Source: Methanococcoides sp. EBM-47 (GTDB lineage Archaea > Halobacteriota > Methanosarcinia > Methanosarcinales > Methanosarcinaceae). Taken from it: DNA of 64,000 bases. The stretch lies in the NCBI GenBank assembly GCA_001896725.1, contig MPPA01000047.1:1-64000 (forward strand), read 5' to 3'. The notes under the pieces were generated by a model that searched no databases, was not told the origin of the DNA, and saw only the letters and a list, made by a program, of their open reading frames with translations. Below are positions 9,537 to 64,000 of this stretch, piece after piece. Positions within the stretch are counted from its first letter, which is position 1. Each line of letters begins with the position of its first letter. The translations under genes were made by a program, and so were the position numbers.

Positions 9537-12500
9537 TCATCGTTTGCTGAGATATACATATCCAACAGCAACTAATGATATAATAAATATACCTACGATG
9601 ATCGTCCAGGTGCTGGATCTTTTTGGCTGACTTTCTTTCAGGTCTGCATCTTCCATTTGAACAGGCTCTATGTCTGCAGCACTACTTACAGAGGAAGCTA
9701 GAACATTTTCAGCTGTAATGACAAATGGAGAAAATCCAGGGGTTATAGACTCAAATGTTGAATATTCTGAGTTCACACTTTCCGGGTACGTAGGCAATAT
9801 TGTCCACACACCTCCATCATATCTCTGTAACCTTATATCTGCAGGATCCACACCCTGTTCCTGAAGCCATGGAGTGGCAACCACGAACTTTATTCTTATA
9901 TCGTTGATATTTGAAGTTGATGAAAAACCAAACTTACCCACCCAGATATTAATATACTTATACACAAGGCCTTCTGGGTCGCTGGTAACTAGTCTCGACC
10001 TGTCTTTAAGGACCTCTACAGTGGAAGTGATCTCACCTGAGTTCTTAAGGGAATACAAACTAACCGACTTAATAGGATTACCTTCTCTTTTGAACTCATA
10101 GATAGCACTGGCATTCATTCTAAGGTACTCACTATCCACATCCTTTAGCACAACATTTGCAAAGTCCTCAGCACTGCTTGCGCCGCCTCCACCACCAGTA
10201 CTCCGGCTGGATGCAGAGCCACTGCTGCTTCCACTGTTACTTCCACCACTGCTTACTCCATTTCCACCATTGTTCGGAGAGGGAGAAGAGGTTAAAAGAG
10301 TAATGTTTACCATGGCACCTTCAGTTCCACCAACATCATAAGGCAGCAATGAATATTCATAGCTTGTATTGCTCTCCAATCCACTATCTGTATACTGAGA
10401 TGTGGACCCTGTTACATTCCCAATGATAGTACTGTTCCTGTATATCTCAACAAAAGCTATACCTGGAGAATTTGTCCAGGTCAAAGTGATGGAACTTGAA
10501 CTAATATCACTTGCTAAAAGATCGGAAATAAATGGAACTGCACCAAGCACATCGATCGTTATGGTCTGTGAATCATTTAGACCGTTAGACTCTGCAATGA
10601 ATGTAACAACATAACTCCCCGCAGCTGTCGGGGTCCAGCTGAAATCGCCTGTTTCGCTATTCAGTTCAGCTCCCTCAGGAAGTGCTTCTGCAGAATATGT
10701 GATAATATCCCCATCCTCATCAGTAGCAGAGATATTGAAGCTTAGAAGCTGGTTCTCGTCTGTGACCTTGTCACCAATGGCAGCAAACTGTGGTGCTCTG
10801 TCGACATTATGAACTGTTATCACCACATTTTCAGATTTCATCAGACCATTTGAACTAGCCACAAACCGGACATTATATACGCCTGAATCACTATAACTGG
10901 GAACCCAGTTGAATTCACCGGTCACATTGTTAAGACTGGCTTCATAAGGTAGGTTAGTGGCAAGATAGCTGATAGGGTCCATATCAAGATCGATGGCCGA
11001 GACCGTAAAACTAAGTAATTCGTTCTCGTTCACCTCTTTGTTACCAATAGGATTGAGTATAGGTTCTCTGTCAACATTGTTCACAGTGATAGTAATATAC
11101 TCTGAAACACTAAGATTATTTGCCTCTGCAGTAAAAACTACATTATAGATCCCTGAATCATTATAGCCTGGTATCCAGCTGAATATACCTGTTTCAGTAT
11201 CAAATATAGCCCCATCTGGCAGTCCAGTTGCAGATAATGTGATGATACCCCCTTCTGGATCACTGGCTGAAACAACAAATTCGAGCAGATCAGCCTCATT
11301 GATGAACTTATTGCCTATCGGGCCAAGATCTGGTGCTCTACCCATATCACCGACTGTGATAATTATTACTTCGGATACACTTAGGCCATTAGCTTCTGCA
11401 GTGAATGTCACCTGATAGTTACCAGCTGTACCATTAGAAGGTATCCAGCTGAAAGTTCCTGTAGCAGCATCAAATGTGGCATCAGTAGGCAAACCGGTGA
11501 CCGAGTATGTAACCACATCACCATCGGGATCACTTGCCGAGATCACAAATTCTAAGAGACTGCCTTCATTTATCCACTTGTTGCCGATCACCTGAAGTTC
11601 TGGTGCTCTGTCAACGTTATTGACCTTTATGACAGTTGTCCTGGAATCTGTGTACGTTCCATCTGACACAGAGAATATAACATTATATGTTCCAGCATCA
11701 TCATATGTAGGGGTCCAAGAGAACACATTACCTGTTAGGGTGCCAAAAGGAGCATCTGTAGAATATATGAGATCATCACCATCCATATCTGTGGCTAAGA
11801 GGCTGATGGTCAGATGTTGGGTTTCGTCTATTTCCCGATTACCAATATCTTCAAGTACAGGAGCATGGTTCACATAAGAAGTGAAACAGTTCAGTGCATC
11901 CACTCTCCCATATCCGGAATTATAATCAAAACCTGGAGGGCCTATATCCTCGGCACTTTCATATAGTATGGTCCGCACTTCAGCGGCTGACATGGTTACA
12001 TCACTTCCCCACAACTGTGCAGCCACAGCTGCAATATGAGGTGCTGATGCACTGGTTCCTGAGAAAATCGTGCCAAAATTACCTGCTCCAGTGACAGCTA
12101 CACGATTAATACCAGCAAGATCTGGTTTCTCTCTGACCGTAGAAACGGGATATGCAATTGTCACTGGTCCTCTCGATGAAAAGTATTCTACGTCATCGTG
12201 ACCAACGTCATTGGCAGATATAGCAGCCACTGCAATAACATCTGGCACTGCAGGATGACCAAATATAGAATCACTGGACGTGAGGTTTGTCTGGTCCAGA
12301 GTTACTGCAGAGGCAGGATATATGAAAAGTTCAAGAGTACACTGTTGTGCCGTACCATCACTATTTCTGATCTTTACATAAGCTGGTTCTGTAAGATATG
12401 ATGTCTTGATCCATTCTAATGGGTCGCCGTTACCATTTTGCCTATTAGAAGAAAAGGCAATGGTCCTCCCAGACCTGTCCAGGACATAAAGGTCATAATC

Positions 12501-35037: not shown

Positions 35038-36761
35038 TATATCACCTTCTTTTCATACAAGGCACGCATTATATATCCTGGGGTGAAAGGCATGCCATCA
35101 TACCGTAGCAGGTTCATATCTACAGATATGTCCGCTTCGGCTTTCAATAGTTTTGCGAACTGTCCGGTCGCATTATTCTCCACACATATAGTAGTTCCTT
35201 TTCCTGTTATTATATTCCTTATCTCTTCACTGTTAATAGGATATATATGTGTGAAATGTACGAGGTTCAGACTTTGTCCCTCTTTGTTTAGAAGCTCCAC
35301 GGCTTCTGTAAGGGGTCCATATGATGATCCCCATCCAATAAGGGTGATATCTGCTTCCTGCGGCCCGTATACCTCAGGTCTTTCCATTTCCATTGTGAGC
35401 CCTTTCAATTTCCTCATTCTCTTTTCCATCATAAGTATGCGATTATCTGCTGTCTGGTCAATATGTCCCTCTTCATTGTGTTCGTCGCTATCTGCAACTA
35501 CAAGGTGCCTACTCTGTCCAGGCAGAGCACGAGGTGAGATGCCATCGGGTGTGATAGTATAACGCTTATATGTGCCCATAGTTCCCAGTTCATCATCTGA
35601 CAACAGATGCCTGTGGATGGCGATCTTTGAAGTATCGAACCTTTCGCATGTGAACTGGGAATCAATAAGGTATTGATCACTCATGACGAACACAGGAACC
35701 TGGTACTTGTCTGCCAGGTCAAAAGCCTTTGAAGTGAGATAAAATGCATCATCAGGAGTCTTCGGGGCAAGTATACATCGGGGAAACTCGCCATGTGAGG
35801 CGTGCAATGCGAACAAAAGATCTCCTTGCTCTGTCATTGTAGGCAACCCTGTCGAAGGTCCTGGGCGCTGCCCAAGGAATATGACCGCAGGTGTTTCTGT
35901 CATACCTGCCAATCCTAAGGCTTCCGCCATAAGGCAGAACCCACCCCCGGATGTAGTGGTCATAGCTCTGGCCCCAGCAAAAGATGCACCTAATACCATG
36001 TTAAGGGCGCTGATCTCATCTTCCGCCTGTTCAACCACCACATTGAACCTATCAGCATGTGCAGCCACAAAGTCCATCACTCCGGTGGAAGGGGTCATGG
36101 GATAAGAGGCAAGGAACTGTACACCTGCCGCAAGCGCACCAAGTCCCACAGCATCATTTCCATCTATTAACATCTTCATTGATGTTCTGCTGGCTTTTCC
36201 AAAAGAGTATTTACACTTACCCTTATAGTTATTCTGTACATGTTCATAACCGGCTCTTGCTGCCAGTACATTACTGTGAACTATTTTTTCCCCCTTCTGT
36301 GAGAACGTATCTCTTAATACATCTTCCAGATGATTCAGTTCAAAACAGAGCAAGCCCAGTACAGCTCCCATGGCCACAGCATTTGTATACAACTTGCTGC
36401 CACCAGTATCAGTTGCTATTTTCTGGAATGGCACATCAAATAACCGTTTATCATGGCTGGGAATATTAAATTCTTCAGCGTCCAGAAGTACAACCCCTTC
36501 ATTCAGATCGTCCATGTATTTTTCAACAGATGCTCTGTCCAGTGCGATCAGCATGTCCAGCCTGTCTGACATCGCTCTTACTGGCCTGTCGCTCACCCTT
36601 ATTTGGAAATAATTGTTACCCCCCCGTACTCTTGATAGATAGTACTGTGTTGAAAAAACATACAATCCACTTTTTTGGAATGTCTTTGCCAGTGCGAAGC
36701 CTATGGTTTGTATACCCTGCCCGGCTTCTCCTCCTATTCGTATGCTTATGTCGTGTTCCAT
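35037..36761 (-). CDS. korA: 2-oxoacid:ferredoxin oxidoreductase, gamma-alpha fused subunit
   Basis: The 574-aa protein joins a gamma domain (about 1-185; RIGGEAGQGIQTIG, YLSRVRGGNNYFQIRVSD) to an alpha domain (about 190-570; GNDAVGLGALAAGVQFLASYPMTPST split at A, then QAEDEISALNMVLGASFAGARAMTTTSGGG in pieces). This gamma-alpha fusion with a separate beta subunit is the two-gene type known from several archaea. No delta (ferredoxin-like) subunit is next to it, so electrons must pass directly to soluble ferredoxin via the beta subunit cluster. Confidence 0.88.
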   Translation of the reverse strand: MEHDISIRIGGEAGQGIQTIGFALAKTFQKSGLYVFSTQYYLSRVRGGNNYFQIRVSDRPVRAMSDRLDMLIALDRASVEKYMDDLNEGVVLLDAEEFNIPSHDKRLFDVPFQKIATDTGGSKLYTNAVAMGAVLGLLCFELNHLEDVLRDTFSQKGEKIVHSNVLAARAGYEHVQNNYKGKCKYSFGKASRTSMKMLIDGNDAVGLGALAAGVQFLASYPMTPSTGVMDFVAAHADRFNVVVEQAEDEISALNMVLGASFAGARAMTTTSGGGFCLMAEALGLAGMTETPAVIFLGQRPGPSTGLPTMTEQGDLLFALHASHGEFPRCILAPKTPDDAFYLTSKAFDLADKYQVPVFVMSDQYLIDSQFTCERFDTSKIAIHRHLLSDDELGTMGTYKRYTITPDGISPRALPGQSRHLVVADSDEHNEEGHIDQTADNRILMMEKRMRKLKGLTMEMERPEVYGPQEADITLIGWGSSYGPLTEAVELLNKEGQSLNLVHFTHIYPINSEEIRNIITGKGTTICVENNATGQFAKLLKAEADISVDMNLLRYDGMPFTPGYIMRALYEKKVI

Positions 36762-52856: not shown

Positions 52857-54476
<1,620 letters not shown>

Positions 54477-54530
54477 TCATCTCCTATCTTTCGTTTATGA
54501 TTTTTCTTATTCTGTAATGCTTTGTTTCTT

Positions 54531-54806
54531 TCATTTTTCAATCACTGCAAGCAGGTCCTTAAAGTCAATGAATACGTGCAGTTCACCATCGATATCCACT
54601 TCATCGCTTCTGTAACCACCGTATATTACGTGGTCTCCTTTTTTTACAGGCAGCTCACGCCCATCATCAAATGTTCCCACAGCGACAACAACACCTTCTT
54701 TTTTTTCTTCTTTAGCTGATTCTGGCAGGTATATACCGCTATCTGTCTTTTCGGCCTGTTTGACCACTTTTATTAAAACTCTCTCTCCTATCGGTTTGAT
54801 GATCAT
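54531..54806 (-). CDS. groS: Co-chaperonin GroES
   Basis: The 91-aa subunit caps the GroEL ring. IKPIGERVLIKV at the N-terminus, a mobile loop (EKTDSGIYLPESAKEE) and DHVIYGGYRSDEV are visible. ATG 54806 has a strong GGAGGAT site 8 nt upstream; a longer frame upstream has none. It is the first gene of the heat-shock run. Confidence 0.95.
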   Translation of the reverse strand: MIIKPIGERVLIKVVKQAEKTDSGIYLPESAKEEKKEGVVVAVGTFDDGRELPVKKGDHVIYGGYRSDEVDIDGELHVFIDFKDLLAVIEK

Positions 54807-54877
54807 TGCTGATATCCTCCAAATGAAACTATGCCAACTGTCCAGCTGGCTTGTGTGCACCTATATTGTTTACCTAA

Positions 54878-54885
54878 TATATAAA
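54878..54885 (-). promoter_or_regulatory. Box A of the groES-groEL operon
   Basis: TTTATATA on the minus strand lies 72-79 nt upstream of groES. Transcription would start about 25 nt downstream (near 54855), leaving a leader of about 50 nt. A short palindrome CCAGCTGG (54842-54849) lies in that leader. Confidence 0.55.
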
Positions 54886-54944
54886 AGTTGTGGGTTTTAG
54901 ATAAATCATTTTTATTAAATCGAAATGATATCGATAAAAAATAG

Positions 54945-54962
54945 TAACTTATATATAAGTTA
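54945..54962. promoter_or_regulatory. Perfect 18-bp palindrome over the box A of the regulator gene
   Basis: TAACTTATATATAAGTTA reads the same on both strands. Its centre lies 29 nt before the ATG at 54982, where a box A is expected for a leaderless transcript, so a dimer bound here would block TBP. It is also about 60-80 nt from the groES box A. Autoregulation and groESL control are inference. Confidence 0.55.
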
Positions 54963-54981
54963 TACAAGATATGTACTATCT

Positions 54982-55398
54982 ATGACCCAGCAGAACCAGC
55001 AAATCGTTCTGATAAGCCTTGAAAAACCCAGGGACAAGAACCTTGAGGATGATGTCAGATGGTTGTGTGACAGCTTCGGGCTTTCATCCGGTAGGGACAC
55101 TGAGGACATGGTTCTCAGAATAATAATGGATATGTTACGGATGCTGGCTGAGGAAGACAGAGTGACCTCTGAGTCTATAGCTGATAATCTTGACGTAAGG
55201 CTTGCACGCGTGAACCATCATCTGCGCAACCTTATAGGTTCAGGTATGATCTACAGGAGAAAAAGGTTGCTCTACCTGCGTGGAGGAAGCCTCAAGGCAG
55301 CGGTTCAGGAAATGAGAAAAGATTCTGAACGTATTCTTGATGAACTGGAGGTCATGGCCGAAGAGATAGACAGAAAAATGGGCTTGAAGAACAGATAA
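54982..55398 (+). CDS. Winged-helix regulator divergent from groES
   Basis: The 138-aa protein has a winged-helix fold (about 48-100) with the ArsR/MarR-like recognition helix TSESIADNLDVRLARVNHHL and a wing around YRRKRLLYLRG, then a C-terminal helix. No ribosome site precedes the ATG, and a box A sits 29 nt upstream, suggesting a leaderless mRNA. It is divergent from the heat-shock genes and is a good candidate to regulate them; it is not clearly Phr. Confidence 0.7.
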   Translation: MTQQNQQIVLISLEKPRDKNLEDDVRWLCDSFGLSSGRDTEDMVLRIIMDMLRMLAEEDRVTSESIADNLDVRLARVNHHLRNLIGSGMIYRRKRLLYLRGGSLKAAVQEMRKDSERILDELEVMAEEIDRKMGLKNR

Positions 55399-55422
55399 AT
55401 TATGGATGTCTATCTTCTCTTT

Positions 55423-56256
55423 TTATTTTTCCATATCATGCACCCAGAAACCGCCTTCTAGTGTCAGTTCTTTCTTCCACACCGGTACTTCCGACTTTAG
55501 CATTTCCAGAGCATCACTAAGGGCTATGAACAGTTCCTGCCTGTGTGCAGCAGCGACGACTATGTAAACAATATCTTCTCCAGGTCCGATAGTGCCAGTA
55601 CGGTGGTGCATCCTTATATCCAGCACTCCCTCTCTTTGCATAAGTTCGTGACAAATCTTTTGCATTGCCTCCTCGGCAACTTTTTCATATTTCTCAAAAT
55701 ACAATGCCTTTGTTTCCACATCTTCAGAAAATTGTCTGACGATCCCGGTAAATGTACCGATACCACCTGTATGTTTTATCTTTTGTCCCTGCTTTACCTG
55801 TTCTATGAGCAATGGGAGAGTTATCCAATCCTCTTGTTGATTAACGAGCTCAGCGAGTATATCAATGTTCCAGTCCCCTCTTGCTGGCAGCCTGGATACT
55901 ACATTCTTTATCTCGTTGATATTTTCCAGCTCTCCGAGAACTATCTTTGGTAAGTTGCTTTTCTTAGCTCCCTCCACCACTGCAAAGTCCAAGCCCTTAT
56001 CTGCTAGGGCATCAAGTGCCTTGCTAAGAGAAGGATTGCGACCCACAAGCACAAGTTCGCTATCTGTTAGTGCCACCACGGCCTCGGCCCCTGCATCAAA
56101 ATGTTTACCTGTATCAGTGTTCTTGGGATTGAACCGATGATGGAACATCTGTTTTACAGTACCGACCTTGCCTCTTTTTGAAAGGGTTTTCACTAGCTGT
56201 GTGACCAGTGTCGTTTTACCTGTTCCCTTATAGCCGACCACGCTTATGACTTTCAT
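55423..56256 (-). CDS. MobB-MoaE fusion: molybdopterin cofactor synthesis
   Basis: The 277-aa protein joins a MobB GTPase-like domain (about 1-140; VVGYKGTGKTTLVTQL, FDAGAEAVVA, FAVVEGAKKS) that supports guanine dinucleotide addition to a MoaE domain (about 145-277; GTFTGIVRQF, MHHRTGTIGPGED, VPVWKKELTLEGGFWV) that is the catalytic part of molybdopterin synthase. ATG 56256 is preferred. Both are needed for the bis-MGD cofactor of the Fmd enzyme encoded 9 kb away. Confidence 0.92.
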   Translation of the reverse strand: MKVISVVGYKGTGKTTLVTQLVKTLSKRGKVGTVKQMFHHRFNPKNTDTGKHFDAGAEAVVALTDSELVLVGRNPSLSKALDALADKGLDFAVVEGAKKSNLPKIVLGELENINEIKNVVSRLPARGDWNIDILAELVNQQEDWITLPLLIEQVKQGQKIKHTGGIGTFTGIVRQFSEDVETKALYFEKYEKVAEEAMQKICHELMQREGVLDIRMHHRTGTIGPGEDIVYIVVAAAHRQELFIALSDALEMLKSEVPVWKKELTLEGGFWVHDMEK

Positions 56257-56422
56257 ATACATTCCTATGTAAATCAATAATATAAACAGAACGTAGGGTT
56301 GTAAGACATAAGATTAAAAGATCCTGCCGATAAAGGTCTACGCCCACTAATAATTATATTATGTTTATTTTAATTTAATAAATATAGAATAATTTATATT
56401 GTATTGAGTAATTGGGGAGATC

Positions 56423-57112
56423 ATGAGCGATTATAGACTGAGGATGCATGACATTCCTATTGATGACAGGCCTACTGAACGCCTGTTGAAATATGGCCCT
56501 GAGTCTTTATCCACTGCCGAGCTTCTGGCTGTGATCCTTAGAACGGGAACTAAAAGAGAAAATGTAGTGAATATGTGCCAGAGGATCTTCTCAGAGTATA
56601 ACGTGAAACAGTTGAGCCAGGTACAAATATCTAAACTGATGCAGATACATGGCATAGGTCCCACTAAAGCTGCACAGATAGCTGCAGTCTTCGAACTTGC
56701 GCGCAAGCTGGAGCGACATGTGGATGGGCCAAAGCGCAAGATACGATCACCTGCAGATGTTTATTCAATGCTGTATCCAGGTATGAGGGAGCAGAAGCGT
56801 GAGAAGCTTGTGGTGCTCTATCTGGACACAAAGAACCAGGTGCTAAAGGAGGAAGTAGTTTCCATTGGCAGCCTGAATTCCAGCATAGTACATCCCAGGG
56901 AGGTCTTTAAGTCCGCGCTCATGGAGTCATCTGCATCAGTTATTATCTCTCATAACCATCCTTCAGGTGACCCTACACCTAGTAAAGAGGATATAGCAAT
57001 TACAGAAAAGCTCATAGAAGGTGGTAAGATACTGGGTATCGATGTGCTGGACCATGTTATCATAGGTGACGGCAGATATGTGAGCCTCAAGGATGAAGGT
57101 CTTGTCGGTTAA
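56423..57112 (+). CDS. radC: RadC-family protein (JAB/MPN fold)
   Basis: The 229-aa protein has an N-terminal helix-hairpin-helix region (ERLLKYGPESLSTAELLA, IHGIGPTKAAQIAAV) and a C-terminal JAB1/MPN domain with the metal motif SHNHPSGDPTPSKED (about 175-189). The family is common in bacteria, often annotated as DNA repair though a direct role is doubtful, and occurs in some methanogens. A GGGGAGATC site precedes the ATG. Confidence 0.93.
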   Translation: MSDYRLRMHDIPIDDRPTERLLKYGPESLSTAELLAVILRTGTKRENVVNMCQRIFSEYNVKQLSQVQISKLMQIHGIGPTKAAQIAAVFELARKLERHVDGPKRKIRSPADVYSMLYPGMREQKREKLVVLYLDTKNQVLKEEVVSIGSLNSSIVHPREVFKSALMESSASVIISHNHPSGDPTPSKEDIAITEKLIEGGKILGIDVLDHVIIGDGRYVSLKDEGLVG

Positions 57113-57158
57113 AGGAAAACAAAACCTTTAAAGTATTTACTATCAATTAAGCACTCAG

Positions 57159-58079
57159 ATGAAAGATATAGAACTCAATGACCCATATACAACTCCTTAT
57201 AGAGGTATATATGCAATATGTGATGAAAACAATGAATATGTTGAGATAATTGAACATTCCAATTGTTTTGGTGGTGCTGCATGGTCAAAATTCCATTATT
57301 CACATTCTCCTCTCATATTAAAGACAAGTTCCATAGGTAACATGGTCCGTTACCTTGCAAAAACAGGTGTATGCAAACTGGAACTGAAGCCATCGGTTGC
57401 AGCTGCTGGTATAGAATCCATTGTTGTGGATAAAGATGAGGTACATATCACATACGCAGGTCTGGGTGGCGGAGGTGTAGGCGCTACCAATTGCCGGGCC
57501 CTTGCACAGGGTGTCTTGCGCTGTGAATACAGCGAATCTGGAGGGGGGCGTGCAGCAAGGGGTACGGTCATCGTTCCAAGAAGAGAACGGGTGCTTATAG
57601 GTATCGATGATACCGACTCTAAGGAAAAGGGTGCTACATGGACACTAGCCCATAATATAGCAAATGAGCTGGATTGTCATGAGACGGTATATCTTTCGCA
57701 TTCCCTCGTCCAGCTATTTCCGGTGTCTGCAAGAACGCAGAACTGTGTGTCCACTGTGCTGGAGTTCGGATGTGTGGATGCAAGATCGACCACAGAACTG
57801 CTTGAAAGTATAAAGGCAGCTCTTCTGAAATATAGTGTCTCGGATGAAACAGGTATGGTCGTACTCCAGCATTTCAATGCTCATGAGATATGCTCTTATA
57901 GCAGAAAATGCCGCAATGGTGAGCTTACTAAAGAATATGCGGTGCAGTATGCCAAGGACAATGGCGTGGAAATATGGATGAACGGAAATGGTGTTATAGG
58001 TGCACTGGCCTCACTTGCATGGTTCGCAAGGCCGGAAGAATCCGTCAGAATGGACGCTGAGATACATGATACACAATGA
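57159..58079 (+). CDS. Methanogenesis marker protein 11
   Basis: The 306-aa protein matches methanogenesis marker 11, found across methanogens and of unknown function. Landmarks are NCFGGAAWSKFHYS, the glycine-rich THITYAGLGGGGVGATNCRAL region, RVLIGIDDTDSKEKGATW and NGNGVIGALASLAW; the LIGIDDTDSKE motif recalls DUF1743-type tRNA-modifying proteins. Its end overlaps the IorA-like gene by 14 nt, so the two are probably made together. Confidence 0.88.
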   Translation: MKDIELNDPYTTPYRGIYAICDENNEYVEIIEHSNCFGGAAWSKFHYSHSPLILKTSSIGNMVRYLAKTGVCKLELKPSVAAAGIESIVVDKDEVHITYAGLGGGGVGATNCRALAQGVLRCEYSESGGGRAARGTVIVPRRERVLIGIDDTDSKEKGATWTLAHNIANELDCHETVYLSHSLVQLFPVSARTQNCVSTVLEFGCVDARSTTELLESIKAALLKYSVSDETGMVVLQHFNAHEICSYSRKCRNGELTKEYAVQYAKDNGVEIWMNGNGVIGALASLAWFARPEESVRMDAEIHDTQ

Positions 58080-59607
58080 TACAGCGTTTGACATAAAAAA
58101 CTGTACTGGCATAGAGGCTCTTTTCCTCTCTTTTATTAACAGCAAGGTACGGATCGTAACTGGTGTGGCCGGTTATCCCATAACTGCCTTAATGGAGATG
58201 TTGATCAAACATCAAATTAAAGGATACAAAGCTTTTTGGCTGACCAATGAAAAGGCAGCTCTCGAAAAAGCTCTGGGTGCATCTGTTACGGGGCAGCGTT
58301 CAATGGTAGTGGTAAAGCATGTGGGTATGAATGTGCTCAGCGATCCTTTGATGACATCTGTATACCACACCATCGGAGCAGGTGTTGTGATCATTGCCGG
58401 GGATGATACAGGTGCAAGAGCTTCTCAGAACGAGCAGGATTCTAGGTTCTATGGAAATCTTGCAGAGACTGCTCTGTTCGATCCATCGACACCTCAGGGA
58501 GCATATGATGCCGTTAGAAGGGCATTTGAAATATCTGAACAGGCAAAGGTCCCTGTGATCATTAGAATAACGGACAGGCTGCTCGATAGTGAGGGGCATG
58601 TCCTGGGAAGCCGGCAAAATGAAGTAAGTGCTACTTTCGATAAGGACATTTGGAAACTTACTACTAAGGGAAAACACCAACGATTCCACAGGGAGTCTAT
58701 GCCCCTGCTTGAAAAGTTCGTGAAAAACACTTCCTTGAACAGATTTCTTTCAGGGAACAGTGGAATAGGTATCATTTCATCCGGCTATCTTTCAGTACTT
58801 GTGGATAAAGTACTTTCAGAAGCAAGATGGGCAGATCATGCGCATCTTTCCATGCAAATGATGTCCCCCTTTCCCTTTGACACTGTACGGCAGTTCATCA
58901 CTGGATGCAAAAAAGTCCTTGTGGTCGAGGAGACCGAACCGTATATTGAATCTCATGTTGCCATAACAGGAAAAGTGATGGGAAAGAGAACAGGACACAT
59001 TCCATATGGACAAGTGGAAGAAGAACATATTATCTATGCTCTGGACCATCTGGATGAGGACAGGATGGAGAAGTATACTGAAGTACAGACCATTAAGAAC
59101 AGAGGTCCAAGACCTTTATGCATGGATTGCCCTTTCATGCCTCTTTACAAATGTCTGGCGAGCATTGACGTCATGGTAGCAGGAGATATGGGCTGTTCCA
59201 TACGGGCAGCACCGGAACCTCTGCAGGCCATCGATACAGGTTTTGCCCTTGGCTCGGCTATATCCACAGCATCTGGTTTTAAGGATAAGGGTATTGCGGT
59301 CATAGGTGATTTTGCACTTGCCCATTCGGGTATAGTTGGTCTGATCAATGCTGTGAGCTCCGAGGATGATGTTGTTATCGTTGTAGTGCATAATCGGGTT
59401 GCTGCCATGACGGGAGGGCAGGAAGCCCCTGATCTGATGTCCGTTGTAAAATCACTTGTATCAGATATCACTGTTCTGGAAATGCCTGTTTATACATCTG
59501 AGATATCAAATGATACAGAAGATCAACTGAAAGAACTGCTTCTGTCCAAACTGGGTCAAAAGGGAGTTGCCGTACTATATCTTCTTGGAAAGTGCACAAA
59601 ACAATGA
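58066..59607 (+). CDS. IorA-like TPP-dependent oxidoreductase subunit, no ferredoxin domain
   Basis: The 513-aa protein resembles indolepyruvate:ferredoxin oxidoreductase alpha subunit. An N-terminal pyrimidine-binding half (about 1-180; TGVAGYPITALMEM) is followed by a core and a TPP-binding half with CMDCPFMPLYKCL, VAGDMGCSI, GDFALAHSGIVGLINAV and HNRVAAMTGGQ. The C-terminal 8Fe ferredoxin domain of usual IorA is absent, and no iorB is adjacent. ATG 58066 is preferred over a longer frame in the marker gene. Its physiological substrate is unknown; the pairing with marker 11 hints at a methanogen-specific role. Its stop is followed directly by an AAT microsatellite. Confidence 0.8.
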   Translation: MIHNDTAFDIKNCTGIEALFLSFINSKVRIVTGVAGYPITALMEMLIKHQIKGYKAFWLTNEKAALEKALGASVTGQRSMVVVKHVGMNVLSDPLMTSVYHTIGAGVVIIAGDDTGARASQNEQDSRFYGNLAETALFDPSTPQGAYDAVRRAFEISEQAKVPVIIRITDRLLDSEGHVLGSRQNEVSATFDKDIWKLTTKGKHQRFHRESMPLLEKFVKNTSLNRFLSGNSGIGIISSGYLSVLVDKVLSEARWADHAHLSMQMMSPFPFDTVRQFITGCKKVLVVEETEPYIESHVAITGKVMGKRTGHIPYGQVEEEHIIYALDHLDEDRMEKYTEVQTIKNRGPRPLCMDCPFMPLYKCLASIDVMVAGDMGCSIRAAPEPLQAIDTGFALGSAISTASGFKDKGIAVIGDFALAHSGIVGLINAVSSEDDVVIVVVHNRVAAMTGGQEAPDLMSVVKSLVSDITVLEMPVYTSEISNDTEDQLKELLLSKLGQKGVAVLYLLGKCTKQ

Positions 59608-59635
59608 AATAATAATAATAATAATAATAATAATA
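59608..59635. repeat. (AAT)n microsatellite
   Basis: About nine AAT units begin at the base after the TGA stop of the IorA-like gene. Such tracts are prone to slippage and could alter the 3' UTR. Confidence 0.95.
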
Positions 59636-60308
59636 GAAGGGGCGCCCGATCGTGGTAGGAGGAAGGATTTGGGAAAACTATATAAGGCTAGGTTACAGTG
59701 CAGGCACCCGGATTAATATATGCTATTATAAATATATAAATATATTGCACACTAGTTTCTAGTCTTTTTGATTTTATATTAATTTGCCTAATGACAATAT
59801 CATCTAATTAGCTCATTAGAGCTCTATCCTAATTTGATATACCTTTTTAGAATAGCTTACAAACGAATTCCTAATATTGACATTATCTTGCAATTCAGTA
59901 AACACCAATAGTTGATAAGAAACGAAATTGAGCAAAAGGGAGAGGGCTTTGCTCTCTATTCTTATTCATCTGACAACGAAGTTCATCGTATCTTTCATAT
60001 ACTGTATACTTTTTCTCATTCTCCTCTTTTTTTGCACAACTCTAAAAATCATCTCGTCTTCGTAATGCAATATTCTGTATTGCTTTTGTGCTCTGTAGAA
60101 ATGATAATGAAATCACTATCGTTCAATCTAATTCCACAGATAAGACCACTGTATAAGAGCGCATTTGAAAATGTTCCAGGCAGATAAAACTGTATGATCA
60201 ATGAGGATTTCTACAGAACCCTTTTTTGTAATTGATCACATAAAGAGAAGACTTAATAGTGCTCGAAGAAAATAAGCATTATGATCGCGCATGAGGTGGT
60301 GCAGGAAA
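59636..60308. other. Intergenic region, possible small RNA locus
   Basis: Positions 59636-59715 are distinctly GC-rich (with GGGGCGCCC and CAGGCACCCGG) against an AT-rich background, which can mark a structured RNA in an AT-rich archaeon. No tRNA or known RNA could be drawn. The rest is AT-rich; a 91-codon ORF at 59912-60187 has no ribosome site or family and is not called. Confidence 0.35.
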
Positions 60309-60674
60309 ATGCCAGAGGTCACAAAAGTATTATTGCTACTTAAGAACATGGTTTATGAAAGTACAAGTCCGCAGGAAACAATCAGATTTGCAAAATATTA
60401 TCAAAAAAAAGGATTGTATGTGACAGTTGTGCTTTTTGGACCCATGGGAGTAATGCTGGCCAAAGCTGGAAAAAAGGGTTTACCAGAATATGATTCTAAA
60501 ATCAAAGATTGTTTAGAGATGGGTATAAAGTTCAAATGTTGCGAATTGGGTGCATCTGTAATAGGGCTGAAAAAAGCTGAACTGATACCGGGAATCGAAA
60601 TGGTCAGTTCCTATGAAATAGCGGATCTTTTTCTGGAATTTTGTGAACAAGGACAGTTGGTAATAACATTGTAG
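60309..60674 (+). CDS. DsrE-family protein
   Basis: The 121-aa protein has a small alpha-beta fold like DsrE/DsrF/TusD sulfur-relay proteins (VLLLLKNMVYESTSPQETIRF split after V; FGPMGVMLAKAG). The active-site Cys of sulfur carriers could be in FKCCELGAS, which has two adjacent cysteines (about 78-80). It may carry sulfur or bind small thiols, but this is unproven. ATG 60309 is preferred. Confidence 0.7.
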   Translation: MPEVTKVLLLLKNMVYESTSPQETIRFAKYYQKKGLYVTVVLFGPMGVMLAKAGKKGLPEYDSKIKDCLEMGIKFKCCELGASVIGLKKAELIPGIEMVSSYEIADLFLEFCEQGQLVITL

Positions 60675-60715
60675 GGTTAATATACTTCTAGCCGTTAAAC
60701 AAGTGAAAAGTGATC

Positions 60716-61966
60716 ATGATGCAAAGTCAAGACAAAACCGAATATAATGAAAAAGATATTTTGCAAAAAGTAGTGGCTGGGAAAATATCATTCAGGAACA
60801 TAGATAAACTAGTAGAGAACGTGGACTCAGCAGTACACGTTCGCAGAAATGCACTGGAAGAGATCACCGGAACCAGGTTCGAAGAAATACAGAATTATAC
60901 ATTTGATGCTGAGGTAGCAACAAAACGTAATATCGAGAACATGATAGGAGCTGTACAGATACCCCTTGGAGTGGCGGGGCCTTTGAAAATAAATGGTGAA
61001 TTTGCCATAGGTGATTTTTATCTACCCCTTGCAACTACTGAAGGAGCGCTGGTGGCAAGTGTCAATAGAGGATGTTCAGCCATTTGTAGTTCAGGAGGAG
61101 CTAATGTTCGCATCTTCCAGGATGTGATGACCAGAGCACCTGTATTCAAACTTGATGGCGTTGTTCAGGCAAAAGCATTCACTGACTGGGTCAGAAGACC
61201 TGGGACATTTGCTCAGATGAAAGAAAAAGCAGAAGGGACCACACGTTTCGGAAAGTTATTGGCCGTAGAGCCTTACGTTACAGGGGATACAGTATATCTG
61301 AGATTCGTATTTGATACCAAGGATGCCATGGGAATGAATATGGTGACCATTGCAACTGAAGCGATAACACACTTTATACAGGACGAGTTCGGAGCCATAC
61401 CTATATCCCTTTCAGGTAACATGTGCATCGACAAGAAACCAGCCGCGATCAATACCATACTTGGACGAGGCAAGACGGTCATTGCAGATACGATCATCCC
61501 GGAAAAGATAGTGGAAGAAAAACTAAAATGCAAGCCTAAGACCATGGAAGATGTCAATTACAGAAAGAACCTATTAGGATCAGCACGTGCCGGAGCACTG
61601 GGATTCAATGCTCATGCCGCTAATATAGTAGCAGCATTGTTCCTTGCCTGTGGACAGGATGCAGCCCATGTAGTAGAAGGGAGTACAACAATTACAACAA
61701 TGGAAGTTATAAAAGATGGGGATCTCTATTGTTCAGTGACAATGCCTGCTTTGCCTGTAGGTACTGTAGGAGGGGGCACCGGCCTGGGAACTCAGAAAGA
61801 TTGCCTGAAGCTGATGGGTGTTCAGGGACCTGGGAAAATAGCAGGTTCTAATTCAAAAAAACTTGCAGAAATCATTGCTGCAGGAGTTCTTGCCGGGGAG
61901 ATAGCACTGATAGCAGCTCAGGCGGCAGGCCATCTTGCAAGGGCCCATGTAGAACTTGGCAGGTAA
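60716..61966 (+). CDS. hmgA: Hydroxymethylglutaryl-CoA reductase (class I)
   Basis: The 416-aa enzyme makes mevalonate from HMG-CoA for isoprenoid lipid synthesis. Seen are the HMG-binding TTEGALVASVNRGC with catalytic Glu, DKKPAAINTILGRGKTV with Lys, GQDAAHVVEGSTTITTMEV with Asp (split after STT), GTVGGGTGLGTQKDCLKLMGV in part, and the terminal HLARAHVEL with His. ATG 60716 is preferred over GTG 60710. Confidence 0.95.
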   Translation: MMQSQDKTEYNEKDILQKVVAGKISFRNIDKLVENVDSAVHVRRNALEEITGTRFEEIQNYTFDAEVATKRNIENMIGAVQIPLGVAGPLKINGEFAIGDFYLPLATTEGALVASVNRGCSAICSSGGANVRIFQDVMTRAPVFKLDGVVQAKAFTDWVRRPGTFAQMKEKAEGTTRFGKLLAVEPYVTGDTVYLRFVFDTKDAMGMNMVTIATEAITHFIQDEFGAIPISLSGNMCIDKKPAAINTILGRGKTVIADTIIPEKIVEEKLKCKPKTMEDVNYRKNLLGSARAGALGFNAHAANIVAALFLACGQDAAHVVEGSTTITTMEVIKDGDLYCSVTMPALPVGTVGGGTGLGTQKDCLKLMGVQGPGKIAGSNSKKLAEIIAAGVLAGEIALIAAQAAGHLARAHVELGR

Positions 61967-62032
61967 TGAATGAAAAAGTATACAATGTTACAGGATATCC
62001 TGTAACATTGATCAGATACAAGTACTTTCTTT

Positions 62033-62239
62033 TCAGATACTATCTTTGGCCTGCTGTAGCTTTTGATTGCATTCTTCCATCTTGCCGGCTGCTTCGAGGA
62101 TTTTCAATGCGGTTTCTTCGTACCCTGCTTCCCTGATCTTTCTGCTCCACTCATTGAAACTTCTCAGATGGGTCTCATTATGCTCTATCCAGTGCTCCAT
62201 CAAATGGAGTATCCTATGTTCATCTATGTTCTCTGTCAA
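62033..62239 (-). CDS. Small helical conserved protein, function unknown
   Basis: The 68-aa protein is predicted as a helical hairpin with a His/Glu-rich segment (HLMEHWIEHNETH) and a second helix (EETALKILEAAGKMEECN), which could bind a metal. I recall such small proteins in methanogens but no confirmed role. TTG start with GGAAGTGA upstream. It lies 13 nt downstream of the isopropylmalate dehydratase-like gene on the same strand. Confidence 0.6.
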   Translation of the reverse strand: MTENIDEHRILHLMEHWIEHNETHLRSFNEWSRKIREAGYEETALKILEAAGKMEECNQKLQQAKDSI

Positions 62240-62252
62240 TAGATCACTTCCT

Positions 62253-63494
62253 TTATATTTCCCGAGGATCGGTGATATAACCAGTTATGGCAGATGCTGC
62301 AGCTGTTGCAGGAGATGCAAGATATATATAACCACCTGTACCCATGCGCCCTCTGAAATTACGGTTAGACGTGGATACACACACTTCTCCCGGAGCTATA
62401 ACACCCATATGCCCGCCCAGGCATGGACCGCAACCGGGCATGCCAATGGTTGCTCCTGCCTCAAGCAGTGTAGCAAGCGTGCCGTTCACTAAGGCTTCTT
62501 TCATCACTTCCCTGGACGCAGGTATAATTATTGTCCTTACTGCAACCTTTTCATTCTTTAGGACCTTTGCAGCAAGCTCCAGGTCTTCAAGCCTTCCGTT
62601 AGTGCAGGTACCTATGAATACCTGATCGACCTTTGTCTTTGGAACTTCGGAGACACTGACCACATTATCCACCTGATGAGGAAGGGCAACCTGAGGCTCC
62701 AGATCAGAAGCATTTATTTGGAAATCCTTAATATAATTTGCATCTTCGTCCGCATAGACAGGTTCATACTCTTCTGCTGCCCTATCCTGAAGATAATCAA
62801 AAGTGATCTTATCTGCAGGAACTATGCCAGCTTTGGCGCCCATCTCTATTGCCATATTACATAAGGTCATTCTGCCAGATATAGAAAGCTCGGAGATCGT
62901 CTGTCCATAGAACTCCATTGCTTTATAGGTAGCTCCATCAGCACCTACTTTACCAACGATATGCAGAACTAGGTCCTTTGCTGTGATCATGTTGTTCAGT
63001 GAACCATGACTTGTGACCTTTATTGTCTGGGGAACCTTGAACCAGAGCTCTCCAGTTGCAAATATTTCGGCCATATCAGTTGCACCAACACCTGTACCAA
63101 AGGCACCAAATGCTCCATAGGTACACGAATGAGAATCTGCACCTACGATCAGTTTACCTGGAAGTGCAAAACCTTGCTCTGGCAATACTTGATGACATAT
63201 ACCACTTCCGACATCGTAGAAATGCTCTATGCCCTGTTCTAAGACCCATTTACGAATATTGAACTGCAAAGTAGCCGTGCTCTCATTATTGGCAGGTACA
63301 AGATGATCAAATGGTATTATGATCCTGGAAGGGTCCCACACTGAATTGACCTCCATGGCCTTAAATGCACGGACTGCCAGTATGCTTGTCCCGTCATGAG
63401 CCATTGCATAATCGATCTTTGCCATTGTAAAATCATCGGCTTTCACATCCTTACCTGATGCCCGACTGAATATTTTCTCGCTGATAGTTCCCAA
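62253..63494 (-). CDS. Aconitase-family large subunit (homoaconitase / 3-isopropylmalate dehydratase)
   Basis: The 413-aa hydro-lyase subunit has the [4Fe-4S] cysteines in [13 protein letters not shown] and [12 protein letters not shown], plus [19 protein letters not shown] and [12 protein letters not shown]. In methanogens this family includes leucine pathway isopropylmalate dehydratase and homoaconitase of the coenzyme B route; the large subunit alone does not decide. No small subunit is adjacent. TTG start with CGGAG upstream. Confidence 0.85.
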
Positions 63495-63655
63495 GAGAAA
63501 AACTCCGTATATGATATTGAATTACAATAATTAGACCTTTTATTCCATGATCTGATATGACATAAAATCTTCGATGGTAAAAAAGGGTTACTGGAGCATA
63601 AGAACATGTTCTGATCAAAAAGTAGCTGCCTTGCAAAAAAGACGGTTTAAAAAAT

Positions 63656-63985
63656 TTATGTCAGGCTTTTGAGCCTTTCTATACTTTTAAGCACTGACAA
63701 TTTCTGATACATCACATCATTCTCGATCTGCTGAATGATGTGATCAAGGGGGACAACCAGTTTGTAGAGCTTTACTGGTCTGCCTTTGCCTTCAGTCTTC
63801 TTTTCCTCACGAACTTCGATCCAGTTGTTGTCGCAAAGATATCTCATCGCTATACTGACTTCAGGCTGTCTGAGACCTGCCTTTTTTTCAATGGACCTGG
63901 ATGTTACTTCCTCACCTGTAGATAGACAGGCAAGGATGATAGCAACTGAACGATTCATATTCAGTTTGCGTAAAAGTTCCACCAT
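63656..63985 (-). CDS. HTH transcriptional regulator (ArsR/MarR-like)
   Basis: The 109-aa winged-helix protein has recognition unit SRSIEKKAGLRQPEVSIAMR and wing EKKTEGKGRPVKLYKL. It resembles small archaeal regulators with the GRP wing motif. It starts at ATG 63985, 15 nt from the window edge, and appears complete. Confidence 0.75.
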   Translation of the reverse strand: MVELLRKLNMNRSVAIILACLSTGEEVTSRSIEKKAGLRQPEVSIAMRYLCDNNWIEVREEKKTEGKGRPVKLYKLVVPLDHIIQQIENDVMYQKLSVLKSIERLKSLT

Positions 63986-64000
63986 TTCGTATTCTCTTTC

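Follow-up and report, generated by a model that had tools for sequence, protein, structure and literature searches.

The stretch of DNA analyzed here, referred to as the window, comprises 64,000 nucleotides from Methanococcoides sp. EBM-47 (contig MPPA01000047.1), a member of the Methanosarcinaceae, and our subject is a pair of adjacent plus-strand genes near its end. The upstream gene (57159-58079) encodes methanogenesis marker protein 11 (M11, 306 amino acids), and the downstream gene (58066-59607) encodes a 513-amino-acid thiamine pyrophosphate (TPP) enzyme, hereafter IORS, that resembles IorA without its ferredoxin domain. As reported in the initial annotation, the two genes overlap by 14 nucleotides (58066-58079) when the first ATG of IORS, at 58066, is taken as its start; an alternative GTG at 58000 would lengthen IORS to 535 amino acids. 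That annotation also proposed that the pair catalyzes one particular step, perhaps one in the synthesis of a cofactor. This proposal is supported: in several lineages the pair is linked to genes for coenzyme B, another TPP enzyme takes the slot of IORS elsewhere, and the pair is lost together with the aks genes. The evidence indicates that the pair is very probably part of coenzyme B synthesis, with IORS as a candidate 2-oxosuberate decarboxylase.

M11 scores 363.7 bits against TIGR03280, above the cut-off of 255.8, and its Pfam domains are TiaS_TCKD and TiaS_FLD. Its C-terminal half (residues 142-300; 57582-58058, plus strand) carries a GIDDTDS motif and corresponds to the kinase domain of TiaS, the tRNA(Ile2) agmatidine synthetase. 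Specifically, this region of an AlphaFold model of M11 (predicted local distance difference test score, or pLDDT, of 89.4) aligns with TiaS (3amu_A) in VIA-align with a Z score of 20.2 over 149 positions at 2.2 Å, and the best unrelated row reaches a Z score of 7.2. Sequence profiles agree (Pfam PF22641, TCKD, 5.7e-15), and all 35 sequences compared have G148, D150, D151, T152 and D153. The two proteins share the kinase-domain fold and the GxDDTD motif but differ elsewhere: the N-terminal half is peculiar to M11, Pfam detects none of the remaining TiaS domains in M11, and M11 scores 20.9 bits against the full-length TiaS equivalog (cut-off 600). TiaS phosphorylates a carbonyl oxygen of cytidine, which an amine then attacks.

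IORS matches the IOR_alpha model TIGR03336 with 310 bits (cut-off 650.9) and contains the Pfam domains POR_N and TPP_enzyme_C. Because the alignment runs from profile position 7 and stops at position 473 of 595, the ferredoxin tail is missing. The TPP/Mg motif (G414-D415...N443; 59305-59394, plus strand) is retained, with D415 and N443 present in 38 of 38 IORS and 21 of 21 IorA sequences. Equally conserved in both sets are C352 and C355 (C352-x2-C355) together with C377 (59119-59196, plus strand) and a fourth cysteine, C510 (59593-59595, plus strand), which presumably hold the proximal [4Fe-4S] cluster found in the OFOR family. The cluster motif of the tail, by contrast, occurs in none of 45 IORS rows and in all 21 IorA rows. 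The enzyme was therefore correctly described at the outset as IorA-like with TPP motifs and no Fe-S tail, but it is not free of Fe-S ligands, since the four IorA cysteines lie outside the tail.

In a tree of 59 rows (38 IORS and 21 IorA, retained from 66 after 7 repeats of genomes already included were dropped), one branch with support of 100/100 separates the two groups. This clade, with its conserved motifs, rules out the idea that IORS is a decayed or frameshifted IorA. Moreover, the list of open reading frames from 53000 to 64000 shows no IorB-type gamma gene beside IORS, in line with the earlier remark that a gamma partner is absent. IORS therefore shares with IorA the TPP-binding domains, the TPP/Mg motif and the four cysteines, but by its defining features (score, C-terminal ferredoxin domain and adjacent IorB) it is not an IorA, and it is set apart further by its own clade and by its linkage to M11 and aks genes.

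Among 80 genomes searched with the IORS alignment, out of 92 initially selected, short IORS occurs in 43 (counted from the results table), all of them Halobacteriota. The initial annotation had considered that a complete IorA/IorB elsewhere might take over this role and leave IORS dispensable; instead, full-length IorA coexists with IORS in most IORS-carrying genomes. The genome of the window itself has, on another contig, a complete IorA of 601 amino acids with a gene immediately behind it that we name IorB from its sequence. No short IORS occurs in G392-G409, the 18 genomes found by way of named M11 loci, which have full-length IorA at most, or weak partial matches. The Methanomicrobiales versions of IORS are shorter still (about 380-440 amino acids) and lack most of the middle domain as well. 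An AlphaFold model of IORS (pLDDT 68.9) and its Foldseek matches, with root-mean-square deviations near 19 Å, were too weak and were not used. A KorA-like match in the window, at 35655 (L003), is a different protein of gamma-alpha type, which tblastn did not match to IORS.

Coenzyme B is 7-mercaptoheptanoylthreonine phosphate, and AksA, AksD/E and AksF are the known enzymes of the route to 2-oxosuberate; we know of no genes assigned to the steps that follow. The link between this route and the M11-IORS pair comes from gene neighborhoods. M11 and IORS are neighbors in all 30 further loci compared (L004-L033; in L024 one gene lies between them), in 12 of 20 diverse Halobacteriota M11 loci (some with at least one gene between), and in 15 of 15 Methanotrichaceae loci, so that the pair, whose phyletic profile had been named as the check to make, is conserved. 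All 43 genomes with short IORS also carry M11 (E ≤ 1.3e-90). Where IORS lies apart from M11 it adjoins aksA in several genomes (L172, L173 and L175), and IORS-aksA linkage recurs across L172-L176 and in L199, the last containing a separate IORS-aksA-aksD-aksE-aksF block. In Methanomicrobiales (such order names are inferred from gene content and kinship for part of the genomes) everything is gathered into a single cluster, for example ftr-M11b-M11a-radical SAM-IORS-aksA-aksD-aksE-DUF7714-aksF in L047, where M11a and M11b are paralogues and radical SAM denotes a radical S-adenosylmethionine protein.

This linkage recurs in other phyla. Among the named M11 loci, which are the best 80 of 389 relatives, bear group labels taken from record titles and are in many cases short, an aks gene lies within 6 kb of M11 in 26. 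These include 8 of 8 loci from Methanomethylicota, 5 of 5 from Methanofastidiosa, 11 of 14 from Methanobacteriales, and the single loci from Undinarchaeota and Thermoplasmata. Within the same distance no aks gene was found in Methanotrichaceae (0/15), Archaeoglobi/Mnemosynella (0/15), metagenome-assembled genomes (MAGs) filed as Actinomycetota (0/4), Korarchaeia (0/1), Hydrothermarchaeota (0/1), Methanoflorens-like genomes (0/3) or five others (0/5). The M11-linked AksD of Methanosphaera passes the homoaconitase equivalog cut-off (587.7 versus 550). The linked synthases are short (375-405 amino acids) and have no regulatory domain, and a search of 31 chosen genomes for AksA/LeuA-type synthases places longer LeuA/CimA-type homologues (about 493-584 amino acids) elsewhere in the Halobacteriota genomes covered.

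In Methanomethylicota and Methanofastidiosa, a protein of about 530 amino acids with TPP_enzyme_N/M/C architecture stands beside aksA or aksE and M11. In 14 of the 26 aks-linked named loci this acetolactate-synthase-like enzyme is encoded no more than 6 kb from M11 (its domains were checked in three). It is a TPP enzyme in the same slot as IORS, but it is unrelated in sequence, giving no meaningful BLASTP alignment with IORS. Acetolactate synthase proper is encoded elsewhere in 5 of 5 Methanomethylicota and Methanofastidiosa genomes (756-776 bits, cut-off 538.35), each of which also has a second paralogue at 361-437 bits; the sixth genome searched, from Undinarchaeota, has no match above the cut-off. 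The coenzyme B pathway of R. White reportedly contains one TPP-type step, the decarboxylation of 2-oxosuberate to 7-oxoheptanoate, and the occupation of one slot by two unrelated TPP enzymes fits a single reaction of this type. Separately, a GMC-type flavin oxidoreductase accompanies the acetolactate-synthase-like enzyme in these two groups (L066 10938-12125; L089 4250-5479), and their loci have no radical SAM homologue within 3 kb of M11.

The radical SAM protein that accompanies the pair elsewhere most resembles the sulfur-inserting enzymes LipS2 lipoyl synthase and biotin synthase. It contains CX3CX2C and C-terminal CX2CX2C motifs, and its best matches in the PDB are biotin synthase and lipoyl synthase. 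It differs from these enzymes in its linkage to M11, IORS and aks genes and in its scores, which fall under every equivalog cut-off (65 bits for LipS2, tied with MSMEG_0568). A search of 50 chosen genomes for homologues places the one belonging to the window genome on a separate contig (C33); the short AksA of this genome lies on yet another (C51). In L051, the radical SAM protein and IORS are fused in one open frame of 719 amino acids (10089-12248).

The connection to coenzyme B is also illustrated by loss within one genus of Methanomicrobium-like genomes, in the family of G305. Three of its members (G202, G422 and G121) carry the whole cluster, whereas three smaller genomes (G421, G423 and G424) retain only ftr-M11b-DUF7714. 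M11a, the radical SAM gene, IORS, aksA, aksD, aksE and aksF are gone from the locus, and the cut is flanked on either side by the retained M11b and DUF7714 in all three. Genome-wide, the three have IorA of the full-length type only; M11a is missing, as is an AksD/LeuC large subunit (in a search of 18 chosen genomes), and they contain neither a radical SAM homologue (threshold 1e-20) nor an AksA/LeuA-type synthase (threshold 1e-60). The sister genomes have M11a, IORS, a radical SAM homologue, the synthase and the large subunit. McrA is present in G421. In addition, trpD is not above its cut-off in the three genomes and is present in their sisters, as the indole requirement of Methanomicrobium mobile predicts. 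In the part of the review PMC10658910 available to us, indole and coenzyme B appear in a table of what M. mobile BP requires, the text states that the nature of the growth factor remains unknown, and a cited 1991 reference bears a title according to which coenzyme B substitutes for the M. mobile factor. From the missing trpD and this table we infer that G421, G423 and G424 belong to the M. mobile group.

These observations suggest a pathway to which, taken as a whole, we assign a probability of about 0.64: the pair acts in coenzyme B synthesis, IORS by decarboxylation and M11 in a later step that uses ATP. AksA, AksD/E and AksF would build 2-oxosuberate, from which IORS, with TPP, would remove CO2 and release 7-oxoheptanoate. 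Because such a decarboxylation would be non-oxidative, no electrons would have to leave IORS, and the unclear electron route raised in the initial annotation is probably a false problem. For IORS, the leading interpretation, and a probable one, is non-oxidative decarboxylation of 2-oxosuberate. The proposed role would parallel that of sulfopyruvate decarboxylase ComDE, which likewise uses TPP to decarboxylate a 2-oxo acid non-oxidatively on the way to a methanogen coenzyme, although ComDE belongs to another TPP family and serves coenzyme M.

The LipS2/BioB-like radical SAM protein, linked to M11 and IORS in many genomes, would be a candidate for the sulfur step. M11 would act later, its TiaS-like kinase half using ATP to phosphorylate an oxygen. 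This could be the carboxylate of the 7-mercapto acid, which the amine of (phospho)threonine would then attack; equally open is direct phosphorylation of the threonine hydroxyl. Joining 7-mercaptoheptanoate to (phospho)threonine would be chemistry analogous to that of TiaS. An ATP-dependent ligation or phosphorylation by M11 is offered at somewhat less than even odds. More speculative still is a broader scheme in which IORS in Halobacteriota methanogens and the acetolactate-synthase-like enzyme elsewhere are alternative 2-oxosuberate decarboxylases, the LipS2-like protein adds sulfur, M11 is an ATP-dependent coenzyme B synthetase or kinase that acts on metabolites with a catalytic domain also found in the tRNA-modifying TiaS, and M11 and the radical SAM protein make a coenzyme B-like thiol in non-methanogens such as Archaeoglobi and some Actinomycetota. 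A 2011 review and gene inventory, as far as its accessible portion goes, names 2-oxosuberate and a semialdehyde as coenzyme B intermediates, chain elongation being the only part to which it assigns genes. Our literature search, which drew largely on papers outside subscription, found no earlier proposal of a coenzyme B role for M11 or IORS.

Within coenzyme B synthesis, IORS might still be an oxidoreductase that oxidatively decarboxylates a 2-oxo acid or reductively adds sulfur, passing electrons through its own proximal Fe-S cluster to or from free ferredoxin or the radical SAM partner. The conservation of all four cysteines in 38 of 38 IORS sequences means that a redox role is possible, which weighs against the non-oxidative reading, and the fusion of IORS to the radical SAM protein would also suit such an exchange. 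However, the missing tail motif and the absence of an IorB gene beside IORS in the window argue otherwise, as do the largely missing middle domain in Methanomicrobiales and the replacement of IORS by an acetolactate-synthase type of enzyme, which is said to carry no such cluster. We therefore regard an oxidoreductase as unlikely.

Other readings place the pair outside coenzyme B synthesis altogether. The linked genes might be leucine or isoleucine genes, with the pair serving branched-chain amino acid metabolism, given that AksA, AksD, AksE and AksF are homologous to LeuA, LeuC, LeuD and LeuB, that several of the linked genes score below the coenzyme B equivalog cut-offs, and that the cluster-less genomes also have no LeuA-type synthase at 1e-60. 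The short length of the linked synthases, with longer homologues encoded elsewhere, the AksD that exceeds the homoaconitase cut-off, and the separate location of true acetolactate synthase make this improbable. We give a similarly small chance to M11 being an RNA-modifying enzyme like TiaS in an incidental neighborhood; its kinase half favors this idea, but the other TiaS domains are absent by Pfam, the equivalog score is far from its threshold, M11 is linked to genes for coenzyme B in several phyla, and M11a is lost together with those genes. Slightly less probable again is a role in the synthesis of coenzyme M instead of coenzyme B, suggested by the presence in the same clusters of DUF7714, which is distantly like the coenzyme M-linked XcbA family (NF052538). 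This likeness amounts to 53-57 bits against a cut-off of 150, the M. mobile-like genomes keep DUF7714 and M11b after losing M11a, IORS and the aks genes, and the requirement listed for M. mobile in the accessible table of PMC10658910 is coenzyme B, not coenzyme M. The retention of DUF7714 when coenzyme B genes are lost hints that DUF7714 itself has a coenzyme M rather than a coenzyme B role.

Several further observations count against the pathway we favor. The equation of the reduced clade with M. mobile depends on size, genus grouping and trpD. Many biosynthetic genes have gone from this clade, so that the joint loss is specific only in part, and completeness is below 90% for two of its three genomes, which weakens the inference of loss. 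G136 keeps M11b, M11a, the radical SAM gene and DUF7714 but is without IORS; it has a single AksD-type gene rather than two, and the neighbor of its sole short AksA homologue is a nifH-like gene (named from sequence; one of the searches behind this comparison covered 9 chosen genomes). Since its sister G343 carries IORS and the aks genes as their own block, G136 may have lost this block, or its assembly may miss it. The divergent IORS genes of G149 (L171) and G218 (L170) have neither M11 nor aks genes nearby, and none of 7 Methanococci loci (5 of which are short) has an aks gene near M11. McrA is present and M11 is not above its cut-off in the ANME-1-like genomes G058, G088 and G113 and in the f11 genomes G007 and G027. 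Conversely, the Archaeoglobi G024 and G132 carry M11 with neither McrA nor short AksA, and M11 is therefore not solely an enzyme of de novo coenzyme B synthesis there.

As this last point illustrates, the linkage noted at the outset between IORS and a protein found only in methanogens holds with regard to the linkage, but M11 is not restricted to methanogens. In a survey of 42 chosen genomes for McrA, M11 was found without a McrA match in Archaeoglobi (G024, G034, G132 and G188), Mnemosynella (G149) and others (G052, G394, G396, G397 and G406-G409), often beside a radical SAM protein. In Geoglobus and Archaeoglobus loci (L064, L068 and L082), M11 has a thioredoxin-reductase-like gene on one side and a radical SAM gene on the other, a neighborhood that makes a coenzyme B-like thiol outside methanogenesis possible. 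M11 also adjoins a radical SAM gene in four loci filed as Actinomycetota MAGs (L073, L075, L081 and L083), where some neighbors look bacterial, for example a dnaK-like gene; two of the four genomes (G396 and G397) have no McrA match. The paralogue M11b scores about 183-217 bits, under the TIGR03280 cut-off, and adjoins ftr in Methanomicrobiales (L047 10405-11361; L164-L169); it occurs as well in a Korarchaeia locus (L091 3875-4822). Other recurring neighbors are DUF7714 (PF24830), which lies inside aks/M11 clusters (L047 3724-4524; L051 15034-15879; L110 11859-12755), and MtxX-like genes (methanogenesis marker 4) near M11 or aksA (L066 5662-6492; L057, L058, L061, L110 and L112).

In the window, a gene for an AksD/LeuC-type large subunit lies 2.6 kb downstream of the pair on the minus strand (62253-63494). 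Its nearest curated equivalog is the homoaconitase HacA_Meth, just below whose cut-off it falls (539.7 bits versus 550; LEU2, 519 versus 610.65), and this assignment is not formally settled. Shortly downstream of the pair (60291-60674) is a gene for a small DsrE/DsrF-like protein, a possible sulfur carrier, and the stop codon of IORS is followed by a stretch of TAA repeats (59608-59635). A trinucleotide repeat encoding poly-Asn opens the reading frame behind iorB elsewhere in the genome (L002, 3980 onward). Upstream, a RadC family gene (56423-57112, plus strand) is a frequent neighbor of the pair in Methanosarcinaceae and probably lies outside its system, and a further gene (55423-56277) joins MobB and MoaE domains in a single protein.

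Biological methane formation depends on coenzyme B, and the clusters described here provide candidates for the decarboxylation, sulfur and ligation or phosphorylation steps of coenzyme B synthesis, as well as a first role for methanogenesis marker protein 11. If true, these assignments would explain a nutritional requirement of Methanomicrobium mobile and would provide new methanogen-enriched targets.

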